Source: Micromonospora fulviviridis
Lineage (GTDB): Bacteria > Actinomycetota > Actinomycetes > Mycobacteriales > Micromonosporaceae
Length of the DNA stretch: 64,000 nt
Assembly (NCBI RefSeq): GCF_014648395.1
Contig: NZ_BMRA01000010.1
Coordinates: 124,001-188,000, forward strand
Direction of reading: 5' to 3'
Shown here: piece after piece, positions 22,618 through 39,839 of the stretch
Layout of the letters: every line of letters begins with the position of its first letter
How positions within the stretch are numbered: the stretch's first letter is position 1
Notes under the pieces: model-generated
Told to the model about the DNA's origin: nothing
Seen by the model: the letters and a program-made list of their open reading frames with translations, nothing else
Databases searched by the model: none
Translations under genes and position numbers: made by a program

Positions 22618-23523
22618 CTAGCGCACGCCCTCGAAGGCGATGGCCGGATCGGTCTGCGCGGCCCCGCCCCAGACCGCCTCGTCGTACGTGGCGTCACCGT
22701 TGAGGTGGCGGAGGAACCACTGGGTGAGCAGCCGCCGGCTGAGCTGCAACTGGGTGGCTCGGCTGACGCCCCCGCTGTCGCAGAAGAGGGACGAGCTGTC
22801 CATGAAGCCGCAGTGGTAACCGCCCCGGATGGTTCGCAGCTGCTTGGCGGGCGGCTTGCTGTCGTAGATGGGCCGCTGGTGGCCGGCGACCCCGGCGATG
22901 GTGTCGCGGTCGCCGGCGACCAGCTGCACCGGGATGCCGAGTGTCGCCGCGGCCGCCTTGGCGGAGGGGTTCGTCTCGGCCGCGGCCAGGTTCGCCACGG
23001 TCACGACGCGGGGGTTGCGCGCCGCGGCGAGCAGGCTCGCCCCACCGCCCATCGAGTGCCCGGACAGGGCGAACCGGTCGGTGTTGACGTGCCCGGCGAA
23101 ACGGGATCCGGTCGTGGTGTCCTGCGCCGCCGTCCAGGCGAGTGCGGCGTTCAGATCGTCGGCGAAGGCGCTGTGATCCGGCGAGAATCCGCCCTGGGAA
23201 CCGGGGGCGACGACGATGAAGCCCCACGTGGCCAGGTGGCTGAGGGTCGAGTAGTAGCGGGAGATCCCCTGGAGGAAGCCGTGCCCGAAGGCGATGGCGC
23301 GGAAGCGGCCGGGGGCGACGGGTCGGGCGTTGCCGGCCGCGGTCGCCGGGTAGTAGATCCGGGCTGAGAAGCTTCGTCCGTTGGCCTGGACCGTGGTGTC
23401 GACGTAGCCGGCGGCGTACCCGCCCGGGCTTCCCGGATCCGGCACGGCCGCGTCGACGCCGACGGGTGCGGAGAGCACCAGGGCGACGACCAGTGCGCCG
23501 GCCGTCACGAGTCTCCTGAACAC
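22618..23523 (-). CDS. secreted alpha/beta hydrolase (PET-hydrolase/chlorophyllase-like)
   Basis: A 301-residue protein with a Sec signal peptide (RRLVTAGALVVALVLSAPVGVDA). The mature part carries FGHGFLQG (oxyanion), GHSMGGGAS (nucleophile Ser), GDRDTI (acid) and GGYHCGFMD (base). Cysteines in YHCGFMDSSSLFC could form a disulfide. It resembles secreted cutinase/PETase-like and chlorophyllase-like lipases. The GTG at 23523 has AAGGAGGT just upstream, which decides the start over longer frames. It is monocistronic. Confidence 0.85.
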   Translation of the reverse strand: MFRRLVTAGALVVALVLSAPVGVDAAVPDPGSPGGYAAGYVDTTVQANGRSFSARIYYPATAAGNARPVAPGRFRAIAFGHGFLQGISRYYSTLSHLATWGFIVVAPGSQGGFSPDHSAFADDLNAALAWTAAQDTTTGSRFAGHVNTDRFALSGHSMGGGASLLAAARNPRVVTVANLAAAETNPSAKAAAATLGIPVQLVAGDRDTIAGVAGHQRPIYDSKPPAKQLRTIRGGYHCGFMDSSSLFCDSGGVSRATQLQLSRRLLTQWFLRHLNGDATYDEAVWGGAAQTDPAIAFEGVR

Positions 23524-23693
23524 GGCTACCTCCTTCGGTTCACGGACACGAACGTCTATGAAGGACAGCACCGGCACGGTGCCGCGCGCACAGCCCGGTT
23601 GAGCAATAACGCGGGTGTTATGACCGCTGGCGAGAGGGTCGCGACGCCGGCGGTGCCCTGGTCGAGGGGCGGTGACCGCCGGGCGATGGAGAT

Positions 23694-23737: not shown

Positions 23738-26155
23738 TCAGGCGAGCTCGGCCCATCGGCCGTACATGTGCAGGTCGCGTACGGTGCGTCGGGTGAGGTC
23801 CGGCTGCACCGCGTCGCCCCAACGGCCCGCCGCGGTGGCCGCCTTGCTCAGCTGCGCGGCGGCCACGTCGACCGACTGGGCGGGCAACCCGTCGGCCAGC
23901 AGCCGCTCCGCGGCGTCGAGGCGGGACCGGACCTCGGCCGTGGTGGCCGCCGGGGCGCAGGCCGTGGCCTCCGCCAGGGTGGCGCGCAGCGCCGCGACGC
24001 CGGTACGGGCGGCAGCGCGGTAGTTGGCGTGGGGGACCACCGAGCGGGCCCGGAACGTCCCCTCGCGCAGCGCCTCCTGCTGGCGGGCGTTGAGCTGGTT
24101 GTACGCGAACAGGGCGGCGCCGTCGGAGTCGGCGTCGTTGACCGCCTGCACCTGATCGAGCATCAGGTCGGGTGAGGAGCCCCGCAGCGGCCCGTACGTG
24201 GCGGTGTAGAGCGGCACCGCGCCGACCCGCCGGCGCATGACGGCGGTGTCGTGGCCGACGGAGTCGGCGGAGGTGCCGAAGGACATCCCGGTGAGAAAGT
24301 CGAGCGTTCCGGCGTCCACCCAGGCGCCCCAGTTCTGGAACTTCTTGGCCAGCCCGTCGGTCGGGTCGGCGAAGACGGCGGCGGAGAGCTTCCGCTCGGC
24401 GGCCACCCGCTTCTGCAGGGTGCGTACCTGGTCGACGAAGGTGGTGACCTGCTTCTCCCGCCAGGCGTTCCAGGTGGGCCACTGCGGCGATTCGGGGGTC
24501 AGGGTGTACGGGTCGACGCCGTGCTCGGCGGCGAAGGTCCGGCGGCTGTACTCGGAGTAGGAGAAGTCGGCGCCGTAGGGCAGGGAGACCGGGTAGCGGA
24601 TGTAGTCCAGGTGCAGCCCGTCCACGGCGTAGCCGCGCAGGATCTCCTCGAACATCGCCAGCACGTGCGAGCGCACCGCGGGGATCGCCGCGTCCATCCA
24701 GTAGTAGCCGGGCTCCATCCGGGACGGCTGCGGGCCGGCCTTGCCGACGTCCTCCCGCTCCACCGCCGCCCACTCCGGGTGGGCCTTGAGCACCGGCCCG
24801 CCGCCGGCCTCGATGCCGACGAAGAAGGTGTGCGTCCAGGCGTGCAGCTCGATGCCCCGGGAGTGCGCTTCGTCGATCCAGACCCTCAGCGGGTCGAAGC
24901 CGCGCATCTCGGGCCGCTGCGCCGGCATGCCTGCCTGCTCGGCGACGGCGCTCGGGTAGATGGTGTAGCCGCCCCAGACCGTCTCCAGGAAGACCATGTT
25001 GAACCCGGCGGCGGCGATCCGGTCCAGCGAGGCGCGGATCTGCTCCGGGCTGGTCTCGATGGGGCGCACCCACAGGCCCCGGCCCTCGACGGGGCGGGAC
25101 TCGCGGGCCCGGTACCCGGCCACGTCGGCCCGCCGAGCGGCGTCGCGGGCCAGCTGTGCCGAGCGTTCCGGCTCGCCGGCGGCGGCCTCGCGCGCCTGGT
25201 CGAGCAGGTCGCCGGCCTCGGCCAGTGCGGCGTCGACGGCGGCCGGGTCGATCTTCAGGCAGGTGGCGGTGGCGGCGCCCTTCGCCTGCCGGGCGGCCGT
25301 GACCGCCCGCTCCGCGCCGAGCAGGAAGCTGTCCGCGTCGACGTCGACCGTGACCGTGGCGCCGGTGACCGTCACCTTCGCGCCGAGCGGGGCGTTCCCC
25401 TCCAGCCAGGAGCCCCGCGATCCGTGCCCGGAGAGCACGAAGCCGTCGGCCGGGATGACACTGTTGCCGCCCTGGCGCGAGACCACCCGCCCGTCCCGGA
25501 CGGTGATCTCGTATCCGTAGTCGTTGGTGCCGGTGCGCTCCCGGCCGGCGGCCGGCGTGTACGCGATGAGCTGCTCGGCGCCGCGGCAGCCGGGGAAGCA
25601 CTGCCCCTTGGCCGGGTCGACCCCGTCGGGGTTGGTCGCGGCGGTCGGGTCGGTGGCGTCGAGGGTGGTGGCGGCCCGCCGGATCAGGAGGTTACGCAGT
25701 TGCACCCGGTCGCCGGCGTGCAGCTTGTCGCGCAGCCACCGCCGGTCGTCGGTGCCCCCGGTCTCGGGCGGGGACGCCGACAGCACCACCCCGTCGGCGG
25801 GGATGGCGTTGTTGCCGGGCTTGGGGCAGGGGTCGAAGGCGGTGCAGACGCTGAGCACCTCGTACGTCCCGCCGCCGGCGGCGCGTAGCACCGCCTCGCC
25901 GCCGAAGGCGTTGGTCTTCGTCTCCGCGCCGGAGTCCGGGGTGTAGAGGGCGAGCACGCCGGCGGCCCGCGAGGAGGGGTCGATGGCATCGATGGTGGCC
26001 GTGGCGCCGTCGGCGGCGACGACGGTGGGCAGGCCCGATTCGGCGGCGGCGGTCTCCGCTGCGGCGGGGGCGGTCAGCAGGCCGAGCAGGATCGCGCCGG
26101 CCGCCCCGCTGACGGCGGCCCGTCGCAGGTGTGTGGGGGAAGGCATGCGCCTCAT
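23738..26155 (-). CDS. secreted GHL10-type glycoside hydrolase (DUF187/YngK-like)
   Basis: An 805-residue exported protein. A signal peptide covers about residues 1-33. Residues 40-280 contain two related beta-rich modules with internal similarity (the motifs NNAIPADGVVLS and NSVIPADGFVLSGHG). The catalytic (beta/alpha)8 domain lies at about 350-690 (GRGLWVRPIETSPEQIRASLDRIAAAGFNMVFLETVWGG, WTHTFFVG, DGLHLDYIRYP). This is the GHL10/UPF0748 group, likely active on cell-wall or surface glycans, with an uncertain bond specificity. The C-terminal 110 residues are helical. It is divergent from the sugar ABC operon and shares its GntR operators. Confidence 0.88.
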   Translation of the reverse strand: MRRMPSPTHLRRAAVSGAAGAILLGLLTAPAAAETAAAESGLPTVVAADGATATIDAIDPSSRAAGVLALYTPDSGAETKTNAFGGEAVLRAAGGGTYEVLSVCTAFDPCPKPGNNAIPADGVVLSASPPETGGTDDRRWLRDKLHAGDRVQLRNLLIRRAATTLDATDPTAATNPDGVDPAKGQCFPGCRGAEQLIAYTPAAGRERTGTNDYGYEITVRDGRVVSRQGGNSVIPADGFVLSGHGSRGSWLEGNAPLGAKVTVTGATVTVDVDADSFLLGAERAVTAARQAKGAATATCLKIDPAAVDAALAEAGDLLDQAREAAAGEPERSAQLARDAARRADVAGYRARESRPVEGRGLWVRPIETSPEQIRASLDRIAAAGFNMVFLETVWGGYTIYPSAVAEQAGMPAQRPEMRGFDPLRVWIDEAHSRGIELHAWTHTFFVGIEAGGGPVLKAHPEWAAVEREDVGKAGPQPSRMEPGYYWMDAAIPAVRSHVLAMFEEILRGYAVDGLHLDYIRYPVSLPYGADFSYSEYSRRTFAAEHGVDPYTLTPESPQWPTWNAWREKQVTTFVDQVRTLQKRVAAERKLSAAVFADPTDGLAKKFQNWGAWVDAGTLDFLTGMSFGTSADSVGHDTAVMRRRVGAVPLYTATYGPLRGSSPDLMLDQVQAVNDADSDGAALFAYNQLNARQQEALREGTFRARSVVPHANYRAAARTGVAALRATLAEATACAPAATTAEVRSRLDAAERLLADGLPAQSVDVAAAQLSKAATAAGRWGDAVQPDLTRRTVRDLHMYGRWAELA

Positions 26156-26164
26156 CGTGAGCCG

Positions 26165-26180
26165 AGTGGTACGGACAAGT
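26165..26180. promoter_or_regulatory. GntR/HutC-type operator, copy 1
   Basis: AGTGGTACGGACAAGT differs at one base from the reverse complement of the copy at 26275-26290. It lies 10 bases before the GHL10 start. The shape (ACTGGT...ACCACT) resembles the DasR-responsive element of streptomycetes. Confidence 0.75.
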
Positions 26181-26274
26181 CAAGACTTCGGTTCGAGACT
26201 CAAACCGGACAACTGGTCCCGAAAACCGAGCTCGCACTTGACCTGAATGGTGATCGTGGTCCACTCTCTGCCCA

Positions 26275-26290
26275 ACTGGTCCGTACCACT
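26275..26290. promoter_or_regulatory. GntR/HutC-type operator, copy 2
   Basis: ACTGGTCCGTACCACT sits 25 bases before the binding-protein gene. Partial copies lie between the two full sites: ACTGGTCCC at 26212-26220 and GTGGTCCAC at 26256-26264. The GntR/HutC regulator at 29479-30207 is the natural ligand. Confidence 0.78.
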
Positions 26291-26314
26291 ACCCCCCATG
26301 CATGGAGGACCCTC

Positions 26315-27622
26315 ATGAGGCGTACCCGCGCCTTCGCCGCCGCCGCGCTGGCGGCCGCGCTCTTGCTCAGCGGCTGCGGCCTGTCCAGCGGTGACGACGC
26401 CGGCTCGGCCGGCTCCGGCAAGATCGAGGGCGAGGTGAAGGGTGAGATCACCTTCGCCACCCTGGCGCTCAAGCCGACCTTCGACGACTACATCAACGGC
26501 CTGATCAAGAGCTTCGAGGCCAAGCACCCGGGCACCACCGTCAAATGGGTCGACCTGCCGTTCCAGGGTGCGCAGGAGAAGATCACCAACGACGCCCAGG
26601 CCGGCACCCTGCCCGACGTGGTCAACCTCAACCCGAACTTCGCCCAGAAGCTGGAGAAGCAGGGCGTCTTCGTGGACATGGAGGCCAACGCCGGCGACGT
26701 GAAGGCCAACTTCGTGCCCGGCGCGTGGGACGCGTTCAAGGTCCCGGGCCAGGCCGGCTCCTACGGCCTGCCGTGGTACCTCACCAGCGAGATCACCATG
26801 TACAACAAGGACCTGTTCGCCAAGGCCGGGCTGGACGCGAACACCCCGCCGAAGACCATCGACGAACTGCTCACCCAGGCCAAGCAGCTCTCCGCCGCCG
26901 GCAAGGGGCAGTTCTACGGCTGGCACCCGGCGCTGGAGAACAGCTTCGTCCCCAACCTGGCCAAGCTCGGCGTGCCGCTGCTCAACGACGGCGCCACCAA
27001 GTGGACGTTCAACACCCCCGAGGCCGTGCAGTACGTGACCCGGGTGCGCGAGCTGTACGCCAGCAAGGCCATCGCGCCGGACTGGCTGACCCAGGACCAC
27101 GCCAAGGAGACCGAGGCGTACTCGGCCGGCCGCGTCGCGCTCTTCCCGTCCGGGCCGAACTTCCTCAAGGTGGTCGGCCAGAACGCCCCGGCCGTCGCCA
27201 AGGCCACCGCCGTCGCCCCGCAGATCGCCAGCGCCGACGGCACCACAAACATGTCCGTGATGGGCCTGCTGGTGCCGAAGAAGAGCAAGAACCCGGCCAC
27301 CGCGCTGGAGTTCGCGAAGTTCGTCAGCCACGCCGAGAACCAGCTCGCCTTCGCCAAGATCGTCACGATCCTGCCGTCCACCGCCGAGTCTCTGAAGGAC
27401 CCGTACTTCAGCCAGGTGGACACCGCCGACCCCACCTCGCTGGCGCGGAAGATCTCCGCCGAGCAGATCGCCAAGGCCCGGAACCTCACCCCGGTCCAGT
27501 GGGACGACCGGACCAAGGCGGTGGTCATCGGCAAGATCCAGCTCGCCGTCCAGGGCGACCTCGACCCCAAGACCGCCCTGGACCAGGCCGTGGACGAGGC
27601 CAACAAGCTGCTCGCCCGCTGA
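26315..27622 (+). CDS. carbohydrate ABC transporter substrate-binding lipoprotein
   Basis: A 435-residue lipoprotein: signal sequence with lipobox LLLSGC (Cys22) and then a cluster-B solute-binding fold (TFATLALKPTFDDYINGLIKSFEAKHPGTTVKWVDLPFQGAQEKI; later GRVALFPSGPNF). This layout is the family 1 sugar-binding type (MalE/UgpB). GGAGGA lies 5 bases before the ATG at 26315. It is the first gene of the chain that runs to 37464. The context predicts an amino-sugar or mannose-containing oligosaccharide as ligand. Confidence 0.9.
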   Translation: MRRTRAFAAAALAAALLLSGCGLSSGDDAGSAGSGKIEGEVKGEITFATLALKPTFDDYINGLIKSFEAKHPGTTVKWVDLPFQGAQEKITNDAQAGTLPDVVNLNPNFAQKLEKQGVFVDMEANAGDVKANFVPGAWDAFKVPGQAGSYGLPWYLTSEITMYNKDLFAKAGLDANTPPKTIDELLTQAKQLSAAGKGQFYGWHPALENSFVPNLAKLGVPLLNDGATKWTFNTPEAVQYVTRVRELYASKAIAPDWLTQDHAKETEAYSAGRVALFPSGPNFLKVVGQNAPAVAKATAVAPQIASADGTTNMSVMGLLVPKKSKNPATALEFAKFVSHAENQLAFAKIVTILPSTAESLKDPYFSQVDTADPTSLARKISAEQIAKARNLTPVQWDDRTKAVVIGKIQLAVQGDLDPKTALDQAVDEANKLLAR

Positions 27623-27631
27623 CCGACGACC

Positions 27632-27665
27632 GGCGCCGCCCGACGGTCACCCGCCGGGCGGCGCC
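27632..27665 (+). other. stem-loop between binding-protein and permease genes
   Basis: GGCGCCGCCCG (27632-27642) pairs perfectly with 27655-27665. In the gap after a binding-protein gene such a structure usually protects the upstream message or partly stops transcription, giving more binding protein than permease. Confidence 0.6.
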
Positions 27666-27695
27666 GCCACCCCTCCACGACAGGAGCTCACCGAC

Positions 27696-28580
27696 GTGAT
27701 CGGCCGTCGCTGGTACGTACCCTGGCTCTTCCTCGCCCCGGCGCTGCTCGTCACTGCCCTGATGACCTGGGGCCCGCTGGCCAACACCAGCGTCCTCGCC
27801 TTCACCGACGCCCAGGCGCTCGGCGGCGGGCAGTTCACCGGCGCGGAGAACTTCACCCGCCTCGCCGAGGACACCGAGTTCTTCCGGGCGCTCGGCAACA
27901 CCGCTCTCTACCTGGTCGTCGTCGTGCCCGCCCTGGTGCTGCTGCCGCTGCTGCTGGCCCAGCTCGTGCACGCCAAGCTGCCCGGCATCGGGGCGTTCCG
28001 GGCCGTGTTCTACTCGCCGGTCATCGCCTCGATGGTCGTGGTCGGGCTGATCTGGAGCTGGCTGCTCTCCTCCGACGGCCTGGTCAACGCCGTGCTGGTG
28101 AAGCTGCGGCTGGTCGCCGAGCCGCTGCCCTTCCTCACCGACGCCACCCTGCTGCTGTTCTCCTGCATGCTGGTGACGGTCTGGAAGGGCCTCGGCTACT
28201 ACATGGTCATCTACCTGGCCGCCCTGTCGAACGTGCCGAACGAGCTGTACGAGGCCGCCCGCGTCGACGGCGCCGGCGCGGTGCGCCGGTTCCGGTCCGT
28301 CACCGTGCCGACCGTCCGACCCACCATGCTGCTGGTCGGCACCCTGTCCGCCATCTCCGCCACCAAGGTCTTCGCCGAGATCTACGTGATGTCCTCCGGC
28401 ACCGCCGGACCCGGCGGGCAGGCCAAGTCGATCGTCTACTACATCCGCGAGGTCGGCCTCGGCGTCGACGGGGAGGTCGGGTACGCCTCGGCGATGAGCC
28501 TGGTGCTCTTCGTCGGCACCCTCGGCCTCTCCGTGCTGGCGCTCGTGCTGCGCCGCCGCGGCGAAAGGAACGAGGCATGA
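27696..28580 (+). CDS. carbohydrate ABC transporter permease (MalF type)
   Basis: A 294-residue membrane protein with six helices. The EAA loop is ELYEAARVDGAGAVRRFRSVTVPTVRPT near residues 185-215, typical of MalF-like permeases. The GTG start at 27696 follows AGGAGCT. Its stop overlaps the ATG of the next permease. No ATPase gene is present in the chain, so a shared ATPase of the MsiK type elsewhere in the genome is expected. Confidence 0.9.
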   Translation: MIGRRWYVPWLFLAPALLVTALMTWGPLANTSVLAFTDAQALGGGQFTGAENFTRLAEDTEFFRALGNTALYLVVVVPALVLLPLLLAQLVHAKLPGIGAFRAVFYSPVIASMVVVGLIWSWLLSSDGLVNAVLVKLRLVAEPLPFLTDATLLLFSCMLVTVWKGLGYYMVIYLAALSNVPNELYEAARVDGAGAVRRFRSVTVPTVRPTMLLVGTLSAISATKVFAEIYVMSSGTAGPGGQAKSIVYYIREVGLGVDGEVGYASAMSLVLFVGTLGLSVLALVLRRRGERNEA

Positions 28581-29482
28581 GCGTGCGTGAGCGTACGGAC
28601 CACCCGCGCGCCGCCGCCGCGCCCCGGGGCGGAAGGCCGACGCGGGGAGGCGGCCGCGCGGGACGGATCGCCGTCCCGGCACTGCGCTACGTCCTGCTGC
28701 TGATGATGACCGTCCTGCTGGTCGGGCCCTTCCTCTGGCAGCTGTCGACCGCGCTCAAGAGCACCGGCGAGCCGATCTACGGCCCCGACACGACCCTGCT
28801 GCCGGCCCACCCGACGCTCGTCAACTTCGGCAAGGTCGCCGACGTCATCCCGGTGTGGCGCTACATCGGCAACTCGGCGATCGTCGCGTTCGCCAGCGTG
28901 CTCACCAACTGCCTCTTCGGCGCCATGGCGGGCTACGCGCTGGCCCGGATGCGCTTCCGCGGCCGGGGCGCGGTGTTCGCCGCCGTACTCGCCTCGCTGG
29001 TCGTGCCGTTCGAGGTGATCATGGTGAACGTCTTCCTCACCGTCCGCAGCCTCGGGCTGGTCGACACCCTCCTCGGCGTACTGCTGCCCGGGGCGGTCTC
29101 CGGGCTGTCCATCCTGGTCATGCGCACCGCCTTCCTCGCCCTGCCGAAGGAGACCGAGGAGGCCGCCGCCATCGACGGCGCGGGGGAGTGGGCCCGCTTC
29201 TGGCGGGTCGCCCTGCCCAGCGTGCGCGGCTCCCTCGCCGTGGTCGGCGTGTTCAGCTTCCTGTTCGCCTGGGACGACTTCCTCTGGCCGCTCATCGTGC
29301 TGAAGAATCCCGACAACTTCACCCTCACCGTCGGGCTCCAGTACCTCTCCGGCACCTTCACCAACGACCAACGGGTCGTCGCCGCTGGCACGATGATCGC
29401 GGTCATACCGCTGCTGGCGGTCTTCTTTGCCCTGCAGCGGATGTTCTTCCGGGGGATCGGAGAGGGAGGGGTGAAGGGGTGA
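28577..29482 (+). CDS. carbohydrate ABC transporter permease (MalG type)
   Basis: A 301-residue membrane protein. A basic cytoplasmic N-terminus of about 35 residues precedes six helices; the EAA loop is ETEEAAAIDGAGEWARFWRVALPSVRGS near 195-220. It pairs with the preceding permease to form the pore. ATGA overlap at its start and GTGA overlap at its end link it to both neighbours. Confidence 0.9.
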   Translation: MSVRERTDHPRAAAAPRGGRPTRGGGRAGRIAVPALRYVLLLMMTVLLVGPFLWQLSTALKSTGEPIYGPDTTLLPAHPTLVNFGKVADVIPVWRYIGNSAIVAFASVLTNCLFGAMAGYALARMRFRGRGAVFAAVLASLVVPFEVIMVNVFLTVRSLGLVDTLLGVLLPGAVSGLSILVMRTAFLALPKETEEAAAIDGAGEWARFWRVALPSVRGSLAVVGVFSFLFAWDDFLWPLIVLKNPDNFTLTVGLQYLSGTFTNDQRVVAAGTMIAVIPLLAVFFALQRMFFRGIGEGGVKG

Positions 29483-30207
29483 CCGCCAACACCGGCAAGA
29501 CCGCGTGGAAGCACGAGGCGCTGTACACCGCACTACGCGCCGAGATCGGCTCGACGTTGCGGCCGCACGACCCGCTGCCCAGCGAACGGGAACTCGTCGC
29601 CCGGTTCGGGGTCAGCCGGGCCACCGTGCGGCAGGCCGTCGGCCGGCTGGAGGAGGAGGGCCTGGTCTACCGGGCCCAGGGCTCGGGGACCTTCGTCGCC
29701 GACCCGGCCACCATCTCCAAGTCACTCGCGCTGACCTCGTTCAGCGAGGACATGCGCAGCCGCCGCCTCACCCCGGACTCCCGGCTGCTGGATTTCACGC
29801 TGACCGAGGCCGGGGTGGCGGTGGCCCGCGACCTGTCCCTGTCGCCCGGCGCCGAGGTCGCGCACATCCGCCGCCTCCGGCTCGCCGACGGGCTCCCGAT
29901 GTGCATCGAGGAGGTCTGGCTGCCCACCGAACGGGTCGGGGAGCTGGACGCCGCCGTCGTCGGCGGCTCCCTCTACGGCGCGCTCGGCGCGCGCGGCGTC
30001 CAGCCGCACCACGCCGACCAGGTGATCGCCGCGACCGTGGTGGACGCGGACCAGGCCGCGCTGCTCGGTGTGGCCCCGTACTCGCCCGCGCTGCGGGTCG
30101 ACCGGATCACCTACGACCAGGCCGGCGTCGCGATCGAGCGCGCCGAGAGCATGTACCGCGCCGACCGGTACGACTTCCGCATCACCGTGATCCGAAGGAC
30201 GTCATGA
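29479..30207 (+). CDS. GntR/HutC family transcriptional regulator
   Basis: A 242-residue regulator. The winged helix (HEALYTALRAEIGSTLRPHDPLPSERELVARFGVSRATVRQAVGRLEEEGLVYRAQGSGTFVADP) is followed by a UTRA effector domain from about residue 85 (ALTSFSEDMRSRR onward; RADRYDFRITVIR at the end). It belongs to the HutC subfamily, which includes DasR, the GlcNAc-metabolism regulator. Its gene sits inside the operon, overlapping both neighbours. It probably binds the two 16-bp sites near 26170 and 26280 and senses a phosphorylated sugar of the pathway. Confidence 0.92.
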   Translation: MTANTGKTAWKHEALYTALRAEIGSTLRPHDPLPSERELVARFGVSRATVRQAVGRLEEEGLVYRAQGSGTFVADPATISKSLALTSFSEDMRSRRLTPDSRLLDFTLTEAGVAVARDLSLSPGAEVAHIRRLRLADGLPMCIEEVWLPTERVGELDAAVVGGSLYGALGARGVQPHHADQVIAATVVDADQAALLGVAPYSPALRVDRITYDQAGVAIERAESMYRADRYDFRITVIRRTS

Positions 30208-31142
30208 CCCACCCCCTCGTCGCCGCCGTCGACATCGGCGGCACGAAGACCGCAGTCGCGCTGGTCCGTGACGGAGCCGTGCTGGCCCGTACCCAGGCGC
30301 CCACCCCGGCCCGCGACGGCGCCGCCGCCGTTCTCGACAACGTCGCCGCGCTCGTCCGATCCCTCGGCGACGCGCCGGTGGCCGTCGGCGTCGGCGCTCC
30401 CGGACTGGTCGACCCGTCCACCGGGCTGCTCACCGCCGCCACCTCCTCGATCAGCGACTGGTCCCGCGTGGACGTCCCCGCGGCGCTGCGCGCCCGCCTC
30501 GGCCTGCCCGGGGTGGCACTCAACGACGTGCAGGCGTTCACCCTCGGCGAAGCCGTGCACGGCGCCGGACGCGGCCTACCGATCGTCATCGGGGTCGCCG
30601 TGGGCACCGGGATCGGCGGCGGGGTGCACGTCGCCGGGACGCTGCTCACCGGACGGCGCGGCGCCGCCGGCCACCTCGGTCACATCCCCGTCCCGCAGGC
30701 CGTCGGCCGACCCTGCCCGTGCGGCGTCACCGGCCACGTCGAGGCGGTCGCCGCGGGCCCGGCCATCGCTGCCGCCTACGCCGAGCACACCGGCGACGTC
30801 ATCGCGCTGCCGGAGGTGGTGCGCCGCGCCCACCGTGGCGACGCCACCGCCGCACGGGTGCTCGCCGAGGCGGGCGCGGCCCTCGGCACCGCGCTCGCCG
30901 GCCTCGCCAACGCCCTCGACCCGGACCGCATCGTGCTCGGCGGCGGGGCGGCCGTACCCGAACTGGTGGCCGCCGCCGAACCCGCCTTCGCGGCGGCCTG
31001 CATGCCGGTGCTCGGCGCGGTGCCGCTCGTCCCCGCCGCGCTCGGCGGCGACGCTCCGCTGGTCGGCGCCGCCGAGGCGGCTTGCCGGGGGCTAGGCCTC
31101 ACCAGCGACGCGGGCCGTGACGGCGGGGAGGCCGGCCGGTGA
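30204..31142 (+). CDS. ROK family sugar kinase, probable N-acetylmannosamine kinase
   Basis: A 312-residue ROK kinase: ATP-binding AAVDIGGTKTAVAL at the start, GVGAPGLVDP, then AAGHLGHIPV and PCPCGVTGHVE. The zinc motif normally ends CxCGxxGCxE; here the third Cys is His, still a possible zinc ligand. Position in one chain with NanE makes ManNAc the best guess for the substrate, giving ManNAc-6-phosphate, but GlcNAc, mannose or glucose cannot be excluded by sequence. ATGA overlap with the gntR stop. Confidence 0.85.
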   Translation: MTHPLVAAVDIGGTKTAVALVRDGAVLARTQAPTPARDGAAAVLDNVAALVRSLGDAPVAVGVGAPGLVDPSTGLLTAATSSISDWSRVDVPAALRARLGLPGVALNDVQAFTLGEAVHGAGRGLPIVIGVAVGTGIGGGVHVAGTLLTGRRGAAGHLGHIPVPQAVGRPCPCGVTGHVEAVAAGPAIAAAYAEHTGDVIALPEVVRRAHRGDATAARVLAEAGAALGTALAGLANALDPDRIVLGGGAAVPELVAAAEPAFAAACMPVLGAVPLVPAALGGDAPLVGAAEAACRGLGLTSDAGRDGGEAGR

Positions 31143-32617
31143 TGCGTCTCGCCCTGGTTCCCCTCGACGACCGGCCGGTCTGCCGGTCGCTGCCGGCGAT
31201 GGTCGCCGCCGTCGCCGGCGCCGCCGTGGAGGTGCCGCCGGCCGACCTGCTGCCCGCCAGCCGCCGCCCCGGTGACCCGGACGGGCTCGCCGGCTGGCTC
31301 GGCAGCCGCCGGGCCGACGCCGCCGTCGTCGCGCTGGAGACGCTCGGCCTCGGCGGCCTGATCGCCTCCCGACTGCACGACGACCCGGCCACCGCGGTAC
31401 TGAACCGGTGGTCCGCCCTCTCCGACGGGCCCTCCCCGGTGTACGCCGCGACCGTCGTGCAGCGCACCCCGGACGCGGACGACGCCGGCGAGGAACCCGA
31501 CTACTGGGCCCGGTACGGGCGGGCTCTGCACGCCTACTCCGCGGCGCTGCACCGGGATCTGGGCGCGCCGGAGCGGCCGCACACCGAGGTGCCGCAGGAC
31601 ATCCGGCGCGACTTCCTGCGTCGGCGGCAGCGCAACCACGTGCTCAACCAGGCCGCGCTGGGGCTCGCCGCGCACGGGGTGCTGGACACCCTCGTCATCG
31701 GCGCGGACGACACCGCCGTCGCCGCCGTCGGCACCGCCGAGTGGGAGTGGCTGCGGACCTGGACCGGCTGGCTGGAGGTGACCGACCGGGTGCTCGCCCA
31801 CCCGGGCGCCGACGAGATCGGCGCGGTGCTGGTGGCCCGGGCCCTCACCGCCGCCGCCGGACACGCGCCCCGCGTCGCGGTCGCCTGCGCCGAACCCGAC
31901 GGCCTGGACCGGGTGGCCCGCTACGAGCCGGTCCCGGTCGGCGCGGGCATCGCCAGTCAGGCCGCCGCCGCCGGGGCGGGCATCGTGGACCTCGCCGACG
32001 CCGACACGGTGCTGGTCGTCCACCCGCCGCAGCCCGGTGACGCCGACTGGGCCACCGCCCCGCCGGACGACACCGACCCGGCCCCGGCGGCCCGGACCGC
32101 GGCGCTGGTCCGGCGGCTGCTCGCCGACGGGCGACCGGTCGCCCTGGCCGACTGCGCGCTGGGCAACGGCGCCGACCCCCGCCTCGTCGCCGACCTCGCC
32201 CGCGACGGCGCGTACGCCGCGCTGGCGGGATTCGCCGGCTGGAACACCGCCGGCAACACGGTGGGCAGCGCCCTCGCCACCCTGGTCGCGTACCAGGTCG
32301 GACGGGCCGCCGGCACGCTGGACGAGGCCGCCGCCCGTCGGCTGCTCGCCCACCGGCTCGTCGACGACCACGTCTGGATGTCGTACGCCCGACCGCGGCT
32401 GCGCCGGGAGCTGGGCACCGACCCGACCCGGCACGACCACATCGCCGAGGCCGACGTCCCGGCGGTCACCGCCCGGATCGCGCAGCTGCTCGGCGAACGG
32501 TGGCGGCAGCTGTCAGCGGTGCCCGGCCTCGCCGTGGCCCCCGCCTCGGTGACTCTGCCCTGGCACCGCACCTACGAGATCGACTTCACCCTGGAGGACA
32601 CCGGTGAGCAGCCCTGA
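31139..32617 (+). CDS. DUF4127 family protein
   Basis: A 492-residue cytoplasmic protein matching DUF4127: the start RLALVPLDDRPVCRSLPAM, the middle RRRQRNHVLNQAALGL and VIGADDTAVAAVGTAEWEW, and the end TLPWHRTYEIDF. No function has been shown for the family. It is translationally coupled on both sides (GTGA with the kinase stop, overlap with the FAD oxidoreductase), which argues for a catalytic role in the same pathway. The conserved Asp/Arg/Asn pattern at the start could form a sugar- or metal-binding site; this is speculation. Confidence 0.85.
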   Translation: MMRLALVPLDDRPVCRSLPAMVAAVAGAAVEVPPADLLPASRRPGDPDGLAGWLGSRRADAAVVALETLGLGGLIASRLHDDPATAVLNRWSALSDGPSPVYAATVVQRTPDADDAGEEPDYWARYGRALHAYSAALHRDLGAPERPHTEVPQDIRRDFLRRRQRNHVLNQAALGLAAHGVLDTLVIGADDTAVAAVGTAEWEWLRTWTGWLEVTDRVLAHPGADEIGAVLVARALTAAAGHAPRVAVACAEPDGLDRVARYEPVPVGAGIASQAAAAGAGIVDLADADTVLVVHPPQPGDADWATAPPDDTDPAPAARTAALVRRLLADGRPVALADCALGNGADPRLVADLARDGAYAALAGFAGWNTAGNTVGSALATLVAYQVGRAAGTLDEAAARRLLAHRLVDDHVWMSYARPRLRRELGTDPTRHDHIAEADVPAVTARIAQLLGERWRQLSAVPGLAVAPASVTLPWHRTYEIDFTLEDTGEQP

Positions 32618-34271
32618 GCCGACCCTGACCGCCGACGTGGCCGTGGTCGGCGGCGGGTTCGGCGGCGTCGCCGCCGCGCTCGCCGCGGCCCGGGCCGGCG
32701 CCACCGTGGTCCTGGTCGAGGAACACTCCCGGGTCGGCGGTCAGGTCACCACCCAGGCCCTGCCGGCCCTGGACGAGCACCCGCACATCGAGAGCTTCGG
32801 CGCCTCGGCCAGCTACCGCGCGTTCCGCGACACCGTCCGCGCCCACTACGGCGGCGTGGCCAACCCGGGTGGCGGCTGGGTCAGCCGGCTCTGCTTCGAA
32901 CCGGCCGTCGCCCAGCGGGTGCTGGACACGAGCCTCGCCGACGCGAAGGTGACCGTGCTGACCGGGCTCGCGCCGGTGGCCGCCCGGGTCGAGGCCGGCC
33001 GGGTCCGCGACGTCACCTTCTCCGACGGCACCGTGCTGGCCGCCGCGGTCTTCTGCGACGCCACCGAACGCGGCGACCTCGCCCCTCTCGCGGGTTTCGC
33101 CACCGTCACCGGCTCCGAGGGACGCGACGCGTACGGCGAACCGGACGCAGTGCCCGGCGGTCCCGATCCGGCCGCCCAGCAGTCGTTCACCTGGTGCGCC
33201 CTGGTGGAACACGACCCCGGCGCCGACCACACCGGCCCCGCCCCGGCCGACTACGCCGCCCTGCGGGACCGGCTCTCCTTCGACATCCCCGGCTGGGACG
33301 GCGGAGTCCACCGGTACCGGATGTTCACCGACGGCCCCGACGGCAAGCCGCCGTTCTGGACCTACCGCCGGCTGCGGGCCACCGCACCCGAGCTGGTGGT
33401 GCTCAACTGGGCGACCAACGACTGCGCGGGACACGACCCGATCGGCGACCCGGCCGGAGCGGAGCGCGCCGGCCGGGAACTGACCGCCGCGTTCGTGCAC
33501 TGGCTGCGCACCGAGGCGCCCCGCGAGGACGGCGGGCGCGGCTTTCCCGGCCTGCGCCTGGCGCCCGAGGCCGCCGGCACGCCCGACGGCTTCGCCGAGG
33601 CCCCGTACCTGCGGGAGGCGCGGCGGATCGTGGTCGACCGGCCGGTCACCGGACACGACCTCGCGCCGCTGCCCGGGCGTGCCCGTGCCCGGCACCTGCC
33701 CGGCTCGCTCGGCGTCACCTGGTACCACGTCGACCTGCACGAACGCACCGGCCACCCGGCCCCCGTCTACCGGGAGACCGCGCCGTTCACCATCCCCGCG
33801 GCGAGCCTGGTTCCGCGCGGCGCGGTCAACCTGCTCGCCGCCGCCAAGAACCTCGGCGCCACCCAGGTCGCGGCCGCGGCGTACCGGGTGCACCACGGCG
33901 AGTGGGCGGTCGGCGAGGCGGCCGGCGCGCTCGCGGCCCGCGCCGCCCTGGACCGCCGGCCGGTGTCCGACGTCCGGGACCCGGCGTTCCTGATCACCGT
34001 CCAGCGCGACCTGGTGGCCGCCGGGGTGCCGCTGGCCTGGGTCGCCGACGTGCCGGCGGAGCATCCGCGCTTCGCCGCCGTGCAACTGGCCGCCGCCCAC
34101 GGCGCCCTGGACGGGGAGCGGGCCCGTGACCTGGCCGTGGAGCCGGACCGGCCCGCCGGACCGGCCGACGTGGTCGCCGCCCGCGAGGCCGCGCTCGCCC
34201 TCGGCGCCGCGCCGTCCGCCGTGGACACCGACCGCCCGTTCGGCGCCGTACTGGAGGACATCACCCGATGA
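32604..34271 (+). CDS. FAD-dependent oxidoreductase (FAD_oxidored, PF12831 type)
   Basis: A 555-residue flavoprotein. The FAD fold starts TADVAVVGGGFGGVAAALAAARAGATVVLVEEHSRVGG. FSDGTVLAAAVFCDATERGDLAPLAG and LLAAAKNLGATQVAAAAYRVHHGEWAVGEAAGALA are the typical further FAD-contact regions of PF12831. Family members lie in polysaccharide-use clusters of many bacteria and are often called xanthan-lyase-related without evidence. The GTG start overlaps the DUF4127 gene by 14 bases. An oxidative step on a sugar or glycoside is the simplest role. Confidence 0.87.
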   Translation: MSSPEPTLTADVAVVGGGFGGVAAALAAARAGATVVLVEEHSRVGGQVTTQALPALDEHPHIESFGASASYRAFRDTVRAHYGGVANPGGGWVSRLCFEPAVAQRVLDTSLADAKVTVLTGLAPVAARVEAGRVRDVTFSDGTVLAAAVFCDATERGDLAPLAGFATVTGSEGRDAYGEPDAVPGGPDPAAQQSFTWCALVEHDPGADHTGPAPADYAALRDRLSFDIPGWDGGVHRYRMFTDGPDGKPPFWTYRRLRATAPELVVLNWATNDCAGHDPIGDPAGAERAGRELTAAFVHWLRTEAPREDGGRGFPGLRLAPEAAGTPDGFAEAPYLREARRIVVDRPVTGHDLAPLPGRARARHLPGSLGVTWYHVDLHERTGHPAPVYRETAPFTIPAASLVPRGAVNLLAAAKNLGATQVAAAAYRVHHGEWAVGEAAGALAARAALDRRPVSDVRDPAFLITVQRDLVAAGVPLAWVADVPAEHPRFAAVQLAAAHGALDGERARDLAVEPDRPAGPADVVAAREAALALGAAPSAVDTDRPFGAVLEDITR

Positions 34272-34957
34272 CCGTGCTCGACACGATCCGTGGCCGGCTG
34301 GTCGTCTCCTGCCAGGCCGACCCCGGCGAACCGCTCGACGACCCGACGCACATCGTGGCGCTCGCCCGCTCCGCGCTGCGCGGCGGCGCCGCCGCGATCC
34401 GCGCCCAGGGCCTGCCCGACCTGCGGGCACTGCGCGCCGCACTGCCCGACACCCCGCTGATCGGCCTGGTCAAGAGCGGCGCCTCCGGCGTCTACATCAC
34501 CCCGACCCTGGCGCACGCCGAGGCGGTGGCGGCCACCGGCGTGGAGATCGTCGCGCTCGACGGCACCCGTCGGCCCCGGCGGGACGGGCTCACCCTCGCC
34601 GAGACCGTCGCCCGGCTGCGGGAGACCCACCCCACGGTGCTGGTGATGGCCGACGTGGCCGACGCGGCCGACGGGCACGCCGCCGTGGCCGCCGGCGTCG
34701 ACCTGGTCGGCACCACCCTGTCCGGCTACACCGGCGGCGCGGTGCCGCGCGACCCGGACCTGGCCCTCGTCGGCACGCTGGCCGACACCCTGCCCGTGCC
34801 GGTCATCGCCGAAGGCAGGATCAACACCCCCGAGGAGGCCGCGGCGGCGCTGCGCCGAGGCGCCCACGCCGTGGTGGTCGGCACCGCCATCACCCGGCCC
34901 GCCGTGGTCACCGCACGCTTCGCCGCCGCCCTCGTCACCAGCCGGGAGATGTCATGA
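34268..34957 (+). CDS. nanE: N-acetylmannosamine-6-phosphate 2-epimerase
   Basis: A 229-residue TIM barrel of the NanE family: RLVVSCQADPGEPLDDP at the start, the catalytic lysine in LIGLVKSGASGVYITPT and the glutamate in VIAEGRINTPEEA, then the phosphate-binding AVVVGTAITRP. It converts ManNAc-6-phosphate to GlcNAc-6-phosphate, which enters central metabolism through NagA and NagB. ATGA overlaps link it to both neighbours. No NanA sialate lyase gene is present in the window. Confidence 0.92.
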   Translation: MTVLDTIRGRLVVSCQADPGEPLDDPTHIVALARSALRGGAAAIRAQGLPDLRALRAALPDTPLIGLVKSGASGVYITPTLAHAEAVAATGVEIVALDGTRRPRRDGLTLAETVARLRETHPTVLVMADVADAADGHAAVAAGVDLVGTTLSGYTGGAVPRDPDLALVGTLADTLPVPVIAEGRINTPEEAAAALRRGAHAVVVGTAITRPAVVTARFAAALVTSREMS

Positions 34958-37464
34958 CCGTCCACGTCGTCAACCACACGCACTGGGACCGCGAGTGGTA
35001 CCGGCCGATGGAATCGTTCCGCGCCCGCCTCGCCGAGCTGGTCGCCCGGGTCTGCGACCAGCTCGACACCGGTGAGCTGCGCCGCTTCCACCTGGACGGG
35101 CAGACCGTCACCGCGCTCGACGCGCTCGCCGTCCGTCCCGACCTCGCCGAGCGGGTACGCGCCCACGCCGCCGGCGGCCGGCTCTGCGTCGGCCCCTGGC
35201 ACGTGCTCGCCGACAACCAGCTCGTCTCCGGCGAGAATCTGATCCGCAACCTGCTGACCGCCCGCCGGGTCGCCGCCGAGCTCGGCCTGCGACTGGCCGA
35301 CGTCGGCTACTGCCCGGACGCCTTCGGCCACCCCGCCGACCTGCCCCGGGTGCTCCGCGGCTTCGGCCTGGACACCGCGCTGGTCTGGCGGGGGGCACCG
35401 CCGCAGCGGAGCCGGTTCCGCTGGCGCTCCCCCGACGGCTCCGAGGTCCTCGCGGTCAACCAGGGCTACTACGAGCCGGAGGTGCTCTGGGAGGCGGCCT
35501 CCGCGGCCGACCGGCTCGCCACCTTCCGTGACAAGCAGGCCGGCCGGGACGCCGACGGGCCGTACCTGCTGCTCAACGGCGGCGACCACCTGGCGCCGCG
35601 CCCGCTGCCCGCCGGCCTGGGCGACGGCGCGGCCGTGGAGAGCACCCTCGCCGAGTACTTCGCCGCGGTCCGCGACGCCGTGCCGACCGAGGCGGTGGTC
35701 ACCGGCGAGCTGCGCCACCCCGGCGACTGGCTGACCTTCGTGCTCGCCGGCACCCTCTCCACCCGGCTGTATCTCAAGCAGGCCAACGCGGCCACCGAGA
35801 CGCTGCTGGAGTCCTGGGCCGAGCCGCTGACCGTCCGCGCCGGACGCGCCACCGCCACCGGCCTGCTCCGGCACGCCTGGGACCTGCTGCTCGCCAACGC
35901 TCCCCACGACTCCATCTGCGGCTGCTCGGTGGACGAGGTGCACCGGGAGAACGAGGTCCGCTTCGCCCGGGCACAGCAGGTGGGCGAGCACCTCGTCGAG
36001 CGGGCGCTGCTCGACCTCGGTCTGGACACCCGGCCGGCCGGCGACCCGGTCACCGACGCCGCCGCCGTGGTGGTGGTCAACCCGCACGCCGCGCCGGTCA
36101 CCGGACCGGTCACCGTGGACGTGCACACCGCTCCCGGGCACACCCTCGCCGGCCTGTACGACGCCACCGGCCACCCGGTGCCGTACGAGCTGCTGGAGAC
36201 CGAGTCGACCCCGCTGTTCTGCGCCGACCTGGACATCCTGCCCGACACCCGGGACACCGTCCGGCACCGGATCGCGTTCGTCGCCGACGCGCCGGCCGGC
36301 GGCTGGACCGGCTACACCGCCCCCGTCGCCCCGGGCGAGCCGGCCGTCGTGCCGGCCGGGTCGGCCGGGCGGAGCGTGACCCGGGACGGCTGGACCCTGA
36401 CCGTCGCCGGGGACGCCTCGTTCACCCTGGTCGACGCGGCCACCGGACGGAACCTGCCCGGGCTGGGCCGCCTCGTCGACGTGGGCGACGCGGGGGACAC
36501 CTACACCTACGACCCGCCACGGACCGACGAGGCGGTCGTACCCGTGCTGCGGGAGGCCCGCGTCCACGAGACGGACGTCGCCTCCCGGATCGTCGTCCGC
36601 GCCGACCTCGACATTCCGGCCGGCCTCACCGCCGACCGCGCCGCCCGCTCCACCGACCGCGTCGTGCTGCCGCTGACCATCACGGCCACCATCTGGGCCG
36701 GCGTGCCCGAGCTCGACTGGCGGCTGGAGTTCGACAACACCGCCGACGACCACCGGCTCCAGGCGCACTTCCCGACCGACGCCACGGCGACGACGTGGGT
36801 CGCCGACACCCACTTCAGCCTGCTCGAACGGCCCCTCAAGGCACCACTCGGGCCGCTGCCCGAGCAGCGGGGGTACGAGGCCGACGCCGGGGTGGCGCCG
36901 GTCCGGTCCCTGGCCACCCTGCCCGGGCTGGCCGTCCTCGCCCCCGGCCTGCCGGAGGTGCAGGGCATCGAGGGGGAGCGGCCGTCGCTCGCCGTCACCG
37001 TGCTCCGCGGGGTCGGCTGGCTCTCCCGACCGGACCTGCGAGCCCGGACGGCGGGCGCCGGCCCCCAGCTGCCCACCCCGGAGGCTCAGTGCCGGCGGCG
37101 GATCACCGCCGCCATCGGCCTGCGCCTCGACGCCGACGAGAGCTCGGTGACGGCCGCGGCGGCCCGGCGGCGAGCGCCGCTGCGCGCCTGGCAGCTGCGG
37201 CCGGGCGCGCCGGCGCCCGCGCCGGTCTCCGGGCTGCGGGTGGACGGGGCGCAGGTGTGCGCGTACAAGCCGGCCGAGGATGGCGACGGTGCGGTGCTGC
37301 GCCTGTCCAACCCCACCTCCGCCGAGGTGGTGGCCACGGTGTCCGGTGTCGACGGCGCCCTGGTCGAGTGTGACCTCGCGGAGCGGCCGACCGGGGCGAC
37401 GCCGATCGGGCACCGGGTGACCCTGGGCCCGTTCGCGACCCGCAGCTTCCGCGTCACCGGATGA
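34954..37464 (+). CDS. glycoside hydrolase family 38 (alpha-mannosidase-like)
   Basis: An 836-residue cytoplasmic enzyme. The zinc-binding start VNHTHWDREWYRP and the nucleophile Asp in GYCPDAFGHPADLPRVL (about residue 116) are intact; NAPHDSICGCSVDEVHRENEVRF is the conserved helical motif near 312-335. The large beta-sandwich C-terminal half completes the GH38 fold. No signal peptide is present, so it works on imported oligosaccharides. GH38 members cleave alpha-mannosides; an ManNAc-containing substrate would be new. It is the last gene of the chain, with a strong stem-loop behind it. Confidence 0.92.
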   Translation: MTVHVVNHTHWDREWYRPMESFRARLAELVARVCDQLDTGELRRFHLDGQTVTALDALAVRPDLAERVRAHAAGGRLCVGPWHVLADNQLVSGENLIRNLLTARRVAAELGLRLADVGYCPDAFGHPADLPRVLRGFGLDTALVWRGAPPQRSRFRWRSPDGSEVLAVNQGYYEPEVLWEAASAADRLATFRDKQAGRDADGPYLLLNGGDHLAPRPLPAGLGDGAAVESTLAEYFAAVRDAVPTEAVVTGELRHPGDWLTFVLAGTLSTRLYLKQANAATETLLESWAEPLTVRAGRATATGLLRHAWDLLLANAPHDSICGCSVDEVHRENEVRFARAQQVGEHLVERALLDLGLDTRPAGDPVTDAAAVVVVNPHAAPVTGPVTVDVHTAPGHTLAGLYDATGHPVPYELLETESTPLFCADLDILPDTRDTVRHRIAFVADAPAGGWTGYTAPVAPGEPAVVPAGSAGRSVTRDGWTLTVAGDASFTLVDAATGRNLPGLGRLVDVGDAGDTYTYDPPRTDEAVVPVLREARVHETDVASRIVVRADLDIPAGLTADRAARSTDRVVLPLTITATIWAGVPELDWRLEFDNTADDHRLQAHFPTDATATTWVADTHFSLLERPLKAPLGPLPEQRGYEADAGVAPVRSLATLPGLAVLAPGLPEVQGIEGERPSLAVTVLRGVGWLSRPDLRARTAGAGPQLPTPEAQCRRRITAAIGLRLDADESSVTAAAARRRAPLRAWQLRPGAPAPAPVSGLRVDGAQVCAYKPAEDGDGAVLRLSNPTSAEVVATVSGVDGALVECDLAERPTGATPIGHRVTLGPFATRSFRVTG

Positions 37465-37500
37465 CACCGGACGGGCGCCGGCATCGAGGTCGAGCGCGAG

Positions 37501-37532
37501 GGCCGGCGCCCGGCGGGTGCCGGGCGCCGGCC
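37501..37532. terminator. bidirectional stem-loop terminator
   Basis: GGCCGGCGCCCGGC (37501-37514) pairs perfectly with 37519-37532 around a GGGT loop. It lies between the convergent GH38 and fasciclin genes, closing both transcripts. Confidence 0.85.
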
Positions 37533-37539
37533 GCGCGCG

Positions 37540-38190
37540 TCAGGGCAGGTCGATCGGGCGCAGCACCCGGTCGACCGCGTGGGCGATCTGCTTGTTGCCC
37601 TTGTTGAGGTCGAAGCGCACGACCCGGGCGTCGCGGTCGCTGCTGTCGGCGTCGACCAGCCGCACCTGCCGGCCGTACCAGCAGCGCTTGACGTCCACCT
37701 CGACGGTCGCGCCCAGCGCGGTGGTCAGCTCCGCCCCGTCGGCCTTGAGCGCCGCCCTGCGGTCGATCGTGGCGCCCGGCACCACGTGGTACAGCAGCAC
37801 GTCCTCCACGGTGTCCGTGCCGAGGCCGGCGACGGCGTCGAACGCCGCCCGCTCGCCGGGGAGCGTGCGGGCGTGGGTGATGTCGCGGACCAGCTCCCGG
37901 AAGGCGTAGTCGTTCGGCACGAACGCGGTCAACGGGACCGAGCCGTCGGTGAGCACCTTCACCGGGGAGTCCGGCTTCGCCTGCAACACCGCCAGCACCG
38001 CCGCGGTGAGCACGTCGAAGTCCCGGGGGTTGCGGTCGAAGCCGCTGGTGTCGGCCGTGAGAACGGCGGCCAGCGAGCGAGTCCCGGACTGCGACGTGGC
38101 CGCCTGCGCGGGCACGGCGACGGCGGTGGTGGCCATGGCCGCAGCCGTGGCGCCCACCGCGACGCGGGCGGCGACGCGAGAGAAGTTCAT
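37540..38190 (-). CDS. secreted fasciclin-domain protein
   Basis: A 216-residue exported protein: signal peptide (AARVAVGATAAAMATTAVAVPAQA) and one fasciclin domain, with TDGSVPLTAFVPNDYAFRELV as the H1-like box and DVLLYHVVPGATIDRRAAL as the H2-like box. Fasciclin proteins mediate surface adhesion; the bacterial roles are mostly unknown. AAGGG precedes the ATG at 38190. A single cysteine is present in the mature part. Confidence 0.87.
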   Translation of the reverse strand: MNFSRVAARVAVGATAAAMATTAVAVPAQAATSQSGTRSLAAVLTADTSGFDRNPRDFDVLTAAVLAVLQAKPDSPVKVLTDGSVPLTAFVPNDYAFRELVRDITHARTLPGERAAFDAVAGLGTDTVEDVLLYHVVPGATIDRRAALKADGAELTTALGATVEVDVKRCWYGRQVRLVDADSSDRDARVVRFDLNKGNKQIAHAVDRVLRPIDLP

Positions 38191-39811: not shown

Positions 39812-39839
39812 ATTGATCCGTGGCCCCTTGGAGGTGCCC

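Follow-up and report, generated by a model that had tools for sequence, protein, structure and literature searches.

Nan (sialic acid) operons, in which an importer is followed by NanA, NanK and NanE, are the closest described counterparts of the locus considered here. The locus lies in a 64,000-nucleotide stretch of the Micromonospora fulviviridis genome (the window), and shares with Nan operons a sugar importer, a ROK kinase and NanE, with ManNAc-6P as the likely common intermediate. Unlike Nan operons, it has neither NanA nor a sialidase, and carries DUF4127, PF12831, GH38 and GHL10 genes instead.

Two of its proteins can also be compared with described enzymes. Like GH38 alpha-mannosidases and MngB, the GH38 protein has the catalytic N-domain and has kept the metal-site residues: H10, D12, D122 and H318, which we take to be the zinc and nucleophile residues, are conserved in at least 95% of 23 sequences. 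Unlike GH38 alpha-mannosidases, it has no C-terminal PF07748 domain by Pfam, and although it resembles MngB in scoring 324.7 bits to NF007331 (mannosylglycerate hydrolase), this is far under the equivalog cut-off of 1138 bits. The GHL10 protein has Cwp19 as its only PDB relative at E<=0.001, and shares a PF02638 domain and a signal-like N-terminus with Cwp19 and with DigH, which we take to be a GHL10 member. Unlike these proteins, it has about 370 residues ahead of the PF02638 domain with no Pfam match, and much of this part is covered by an alignment to a homologue on a Priestia plasmid (32% identity, 712 columns). The accessible part of PMC12288456 describes DigH as a hydrolase of denuded glycan, and does not use the name GHL10.

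Gene order and putative operators

The coordinates and families of all ten genes were re-checked and stand as first read. The features of the locus are as follows.

23738..26155, minus strand: GHL10 (PF02638) glycosyl-hydrolase-like protein, predicted secreted, 805 aa, divergent from the operon; PF02638 91.6 bits, cut-off 27.9
26165..26180, no strand: left arm of an operator-like inverted pair, adjoining the GHL10 start codon; AGTGGTACGGACAAGT, 94% complementary to the right arm
26275..26290, no strand: right arm of the operator-like inverted pair, upstream of the SBP gene; perfect TGGTCCGTACCA at 26277-26288
26315..27622, plus strand: SBP, sugar-binding lipoprotein of a carbohydrate ABC importer; PF01547 126 bits, LLLSGC lipobox-like N-terminus
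27631..27666, plus strand: strong RNA hairpin in the gap between SBP and permease 1; stretch 27620-27697, MFE -38.9 kcal/mol, z -3.2
27696..28580, plus strand: ABC permease 1; PF00528
28577..29482, plus strand: ABC permease 2; PF00528, 4-nt overlap with permease 1
29479..30207, plus strand: GntR/HutC-type regulator with UTRA effector domain; PF00392, PF07702
30204..31142, plus strand: ROK-family sugar kinase; PF00480 194 bits
31142..32617 (or GTG start at 31139), plus strand: DUF4127 (PF13552), 491 aa; PF13552 390.5 bits, cut-off 27
32604..34271, plus strand: FAD-dependent oxidoreductase, PF12831; 267.7 bits, cut-off 27
34268..34957, plus strand: NanE, N-acetylmannosamine-6-phosphate 2-epimerase; PRK01130 259.4 bits, cut-off 189
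34954..37464, plus strand: GH38 alpha-mannosidase-like enzyme; PF01074 90.5 bits, cut-off 25
37501..37532, plus strand: terminator-like 14-bp hairpin 3' of GH38, without a T-run; stretch 37462-37545, z -4.3

The sequence-only reading had described a chain of eight overlapping genes and a divergent secreted hydrolase. The eight genes from permease 1 to GH38 do overlap consecutively, by 1-14 nt, but the chain totals nine, with the SBP gene set off by a 73-nt gap that holds the strong hairpin. The divergent hydrolase was recovered as described, with GHL10 on the minus strand behind a signal-like N-terminus. That GHL10 and the operon stand under common operators is plausible given the inverted pair between the divergent starts, whose 16-bp arms lie 10 nt (GHL10 side) and 25 nt (SBP side) upstream of the start codons. 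An exact TGGTN4ACCA occurs upstream of SBP in 19 of 65 related-locus regions and is absent from the other 46; at the loci's own base rate about 0.018 would be expected per region and about 1.2 over the 65, these being kin sequences that are not independent. The GntR-UTRA regulator may repress from such sites.

The identity of NanE is safe. It scores over the curated NCBIfam cut-off, K69, D129 and E182 are conserved in at least 95% of 60 NanE sequences, and Lys69 and Glu182 are presumably the catalytic residues of published NanE work. ManNAc-6P is therefore a likely intermediate. The kinase had been called NanK-like, a label that the curated models do not bear out: its best NCBIfam score, 133.9 bits to the N-acetylmannosamine kinase model PRK05082, is under the cut-off of 283, and it reaches 111.2 of 450 bits with a second such model, NF047821. 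We propose ManNAc or mannose as its substrate. The lack of a NanA lyase, in turn, holds for the entire genome, in which the best TIGR00683 match has 117.8 bits against a cut-off of 382, and sialic acid is thus an unlikely source. A Pfam scan of the cluster proteins found no sialidase, and the genome's one BNR_2 match is weak (34.0 bits, cut-off 31.4) and lies on a different contig. NagA is present elsewhere in the genome; NagB (TIGR00502) was not found there.

DUF4127 in this genome and on plasmids

The DUF4127 protein matches PF13552 over its full length (model positions 2-488 of 489), its AlphaFold2 model has a mean pLDDT of 96.6, and 51 residues are conserved in at least 97% of 82 sequences. 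Neither Foldseek nor a sequence comparison found a PDB relative at E<=0.001, and a literature search for the string DUF4127 returned no paper and no function. DUF4127 occurs a second time in the genome, next to another NanE and together with two permeases, an SBP, an FAD enzyme and a LacI regulator; this copy begins with a twin-arginine-like signal. A PLDxRP-type motif is present in 119 of the 120 listed relatives of the second copy; 108 of these 119 have a signal-like N-terminus (RR in 48), and eight of the 120 have an LPXTG C-terminus. By the same rule, none of the 117 motif-bearing relatives of the window DUF4127 (120 listed) has a signal-like N-terminus. These calls follow our own hydrophobicity rule, not a trained predictor, and cover 120 relatives listed of 294 and of 200. 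Judged from their termini, close relatives of the window protein look cytosolic and the sister subfamily looks exported, in some cases sortase-anchored. An enzyme family that would work within the cell, outside it and fixed to the wall can probably do without an exchangeable cofactor and has a polymer or oligosaccharide as its substrate, which would suggest a hydrolase or lyase.

It had been suggested that the same gene set be sought in other genomes, and it was largely found again in other phyla. DUF4127 matched in eight records of a plasmid collection. Two Priestia megaterium plasmids carry a row of GHL10, SBP, two permeases, FAD, GH38, ROK, an esterase and DUF4127, followed by ROK, ManA, PTS EIIC, NanE and RpiR; the esterase, which adjoins DUF4127, is AXE1, and ManA is mannose-6-phosphate isomerase. 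Proteins of the window and of the first plasmid are 22-43% identical (GH38 28% over 828 columns, DUF4127 26%, NanE 43%), the FAD enzymes being weakly similar (22%, E 1e-5) with the Priestia protein still a strong PF12831 member. No GntR counterpart was found on the Priestia plasmid, where its place is taken by RpiR. On plasmids of Carnobacterium and E. faecalis the arrangement is NanE-HAD-DUF4127-PTS with an RpiR regulator, in which the HAD protein looks like a phosphatase. In the E. faecalis locus the PTS IIA belongs to the lactose/cellobiose class, whose members take up disaccharides. Apart from DUF4127, no glycosidase stands beside NanE in the Carnobacterium locus annotation, and none was found in the 12 of 21 listed ORFs scanned in the E. 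faecalis locus. The RpiR regulators of the Bacillota DUF4127 loci belong to the same family as SpNanR of the sialic-acid (Nan) system, which binds ManNAc-6P according to the accessible part of PMC12713135. Deinococcus has FAD-DUF4127 with GH3 and GH20, and NanE was not found nearby; an Alkaliphilus copy of DUF4127 sits among unrelated genes.

Since a PTS delivers a phosphorylated sugar and the first recognised reaction after that is the one of NanE, the strongest candidate for the maker of ManNAc-6P in the Carnobacterium and E. faecalis loci is DUF4127. As the sole glycan-enzyme candidate found beside NanE in these two PTS loci, it is most economically read as cutting a ManNAc glycoside. DUF4127 could instead be a non-homologous replacement for NanA that splits a nonulosonic acid to ManNAc in a sialic-acid-like pathway. 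The importer-DUF4127-kinase-NanE layout does match Nan operons minus NanA, and the genome has no NanA over cut-off. Nevertheless, we regard this as highly improbable, given that sister DUF4127s look exported and in part sortase-anchored, which is unusual for an aldolase, that the E. faecalis DUF4127 is paired with a disaccharide-class PTS IIA, that the GH38 and ManA neighbours point to mannose, and that the only BNR_2 match is weak and outside the cluster. It is also rather unlikely that DUF4127 acts as an isomerase, epimerase, dehydratase, esterase or deacylase on a ManNAc sugar before NanE, with GH38, GHL10 and other hydrolases doing the cleaving. The two PTS loci, as far as annotated or scanned, offer no other glycosidase to cleave, export and sortase anchoring fit the cleavage of a polymer, and in Priestia an esterase, AXE1, is encoded separately beside DUF4127. 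Our own reading is glycoside cleavage: DUF4127 would free ManNAc or ManNAc-6P from a glycoside and would probably form a new glycosidase family, though in its strict form, as cleavage of a ManNAc glycosidic bond, this reading of the gene context is a tentative one.

Recurrence of DUF4127 and its neighbours

A scan of one genome per species gave 463 DUF4127 relatives, of which the best 80, from named genomes, were analysed; near relatives are over-represented in such a set and kin loci are not independent, and in 22 of the 80 loci the flank on one side is shorter than 9 kb. Neighbours were counted per domain within 10 kb of DUF4127, using profiles built from the DUF4127 loci. An ABC permease is found in 62 loci, NanE in 58, GntR in 56, a ROK or BadF kinase in 55, FAD in 41, GH38 in 28 and GHL10 in 14. 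Every GH38-bearing locus has FAD, and GHL10 is accompanied by GH38 in 13 of its 14 loci. A smaller set of importer, GntR, kinase, NanE and DUF4127 recurs as well, for example in Microbacterium and Devosia. Six Chloroflexota loci have a GH38 from another group; in the single exemplar of this group that was scanned, all four GH38 domains are present. The sequence-only reading had recorded the DUF4127 gene correctly but given it no special role, whereas DUF4127 is the common core of a wider system.

The same reading had named conserved clusters lacking NanE or the kinase as evidence against it. This is borne out in part: NanE is absent within 10 kb in 22 of the 80 loci, 12 of them with a flank shorter than 9 kb and ten with no such short flank. 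It is present in 26 of the 28 GH38 loci and in all 55 kinase loci, and stands without a kinase in three. When 11 of the 22 genomes were searched whole, NanE was found outside the flanks in nine and was absent from two (L055 and L079); three Kitasatospora genomes searched alongside them have NanE at the locus itself. Eight of the 22 loci share a Nonomuraea/Jiangella-type architecture (L039, L050, L055, L056, L058, L063, L079 and L082) with LacI and FAD and no kinase; the exemplars of its neighbour clusters 15 and 22 have no Pfam match. The product of DUF4127 is thus not always destined for NanE.

These counts also bear on the role of mannose. The locus might simply serve to use alpha-mannan or N-glycans, NanE and ROK merely processing GlcNAc or ManNAc side products, as GH38, and ROK and ManA in Priestia, could imply. 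We find this distinctly improbable: of the 55 NanE-kinase loci, 28 lack both GH38 and FAD in the 10 kb around DUF4127, which makes mannose handling optional and leaves NanE as the common part.

Among Actinomycetota DUF4127 is rare (6 of 296 genomes, that of M. fulviviridis counted in). It occurs in 18 of 150 Micromonosporaceae genomes, all 18 of which have NanE over cut-off, vs 40 of the 150 overall (hypergeometric p 1.4e-12, relatedness uncorrected). By listed coordinates, NanE lies within 9 kb of 19 of the 20 DUF4127 genes in this family, the exception being in G433, and the distance is 1.77-1.81 kb in seven genomes that we call window-type (G000, which is M. fulviviridis, G317, G345, G369, G379, G380 and G429). 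Exactly these seven of the 150 carry a full-length close GH38, and exactly these seven a close FAD enzyme (67-100% identical); the genome identifiers agree between the scans wherever they are given, which covers part of the 150. Nineteen genomes hold weaker GH38 relatives, with the close form also present in one of them, and the number with weaker FAD relatives is much larger; G402 has two DUF4127 genes and neither close GH38 nor close FAD. Within this sample the window cluster occurs as a unit, all-or-none. The nearest named relatives of the window DUF4127 and GH38 are Micromonospora proteins.

Such a distribution can be set against the recycling of peptidoglycan or wall-polymer fragments, in which a DigH-like GHL10 would act on denuded strands and ManNAc would come from the linkage disaccharide of teichoic acids. 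The linkage unit of teichoic acids contains ManNAc. This, together with the likeness of GHL10 to Cwp19 and to DigH, speaks for recycling, but GH38 and ManA imply mannose, a sugar that the linkage unit lacks, and a cluster as sporadic as this one (7 of 150 genomes) is unlike housekeeping recycling. We consider it improbable.

A proposed route from polymer to GlcNAc-6P

The ten-gene set of this soil actinobacterium probably takes up and degrades a sugar polymer that includes mannose and N-acetylmannosamine. Sialic acid had earlier been judged a less likely entry sugar than ManNAc or a ManNAc/mannose glycan, and this remains the best-supported reading given that NanE passes its cut-off, that NanA is lacking and that Priestia adds ManA, although the substrate itself is one that we infer. 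The mannose part would be contributed by GH38 here and by ManA in Priestia. We think it quite likely that the operon serves the catabolism of a ManNAc-yielding glycan, and we lean slightly towards a module for polymers or oligosaccharides of ManNAc and mannose in which DUF4127 is the ManNAc-supplying step. Broadest, and doubtful as a whole, is the proposal that DUF4127 is a new glycan-cleaving family and the first dedicated N-acetylmannosaminidase, with cytosolic, Tat- or Sec-exported and sortase-anchored forms, and the centre of a module that is widespread and moves horizontally (Actinomycetota, Chloroflexota, Bacillota, Devosia, Deinococcus) and that recycles mannosamine-containing polymers such as EPS and wall polymers.

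What matters most is a widely distributed DUF4127-NanE module that carries a testable enzymatic prediction. Were DUF4127 a mannosaminidase, a domain of unknown function would gain one, and the family could serve as a genomic marker of mannosamine turnover and as a tool to cut ManNAc-containing polymers. A literature search for the string 'mannosaminidase' returned no paper. Amino sugars, mannosamine included, serve as indicators of microbial necromass in soil. The accessible part of a 2024 study reports that on average 100% of the mannosamine of four cultures was in the EPS fraction (PMC11014887).

In the pathway that we envisage, the chemistry of NanE, ROK, GH38 and the ABC importer is family knowledge, and we infer the substrate, the order of steps, the activity of DUF4127, the specificity of the kinase and the repression. 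A secreted GHL10 would open the polymer, and the SBP and permeases would bring the fragments in. GH38 would then remove alpha-mannose in the cytosol, and DUF4127 would release ManNAc from its glycoside, or ManNAc-6P in the PTS versions. ManNAc would be phosphorylated by ROK, if the kinase has this specificity, NanE would convert ManNAc-6P to GlcNAc-6P, and NagA, encoded elsewhere in the genome, could continue from there. The FAD enzyme may perform a redox step close to that of NanE; Kitasatospora has three loci where, at the DNA level, FAD and NanE lie in one open frame without a stop.

Plasmid-borne gene sets and a shared reading frame

A nearly complete version of the DUF4127 gene set is carried on two Priestia megaterium plasmids (L091:8139-32076 and L092:7380-31317), where the clusters add ManA, PTS, an AXE1 esterase and a second GHL10-type gene, and in three Kitasatospora genomes a single open reading frame spans the FAD oxidoreductase and NanE (L007:11776-14241, L015:11575-14040 and L018:11638-14106).

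On both Priestia plasmids, a further PTS/6-phospho-beta-glucosidase cluster comes after the DUF4127 gene set. In a Subdoligranulum plasmid region (L089:8995-13722), the gene after DUF4127 belongs to PF02522 (Antibiotic_NAT family), and farther along comes a DUF4434 gene.

Other DUF4127 loci

The genome that holds the window has another DUF4127 locus, on contig C6 (L003), whose DUF4127 protein bears a Tat-like signal:

L003:8291-16545, minus strand: DUF4127, NanE, two permeases, SBP, PF12831-like FAD enzyme, LacI regulator

One Micromonosporaceae genome has a tandem pair of DUF4127 genes (G402:C1:1987440-1990635). Clusters of the Nonomuraea/Jiangella type (L079:2195-7262; similar in L039, L055, L056 and L082) encode a DUF6351 protein that resembles tannases, together with a conserved protein about 650 aa long, an exemplar of which had no Pfam match.

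Other genes of the window

Near the operon and its divergent GHL10 gene lie:

22618-23577, minus strand: PET-hydrolase-like (PF12740) alpha/beta hydrolase, immediately downstream of GHL10
38393-39646, past the downstream end of the operon: cyanophycinase-like protein of the Peptidase S51 family

The gene following the latter (39813-41264) had no Pfam match. Elsewhere in the window, positions 16549-20739 form one long ORF, the C-terminal half of which presumably resembles a LysX-type lysyl-tRNA synthetase.
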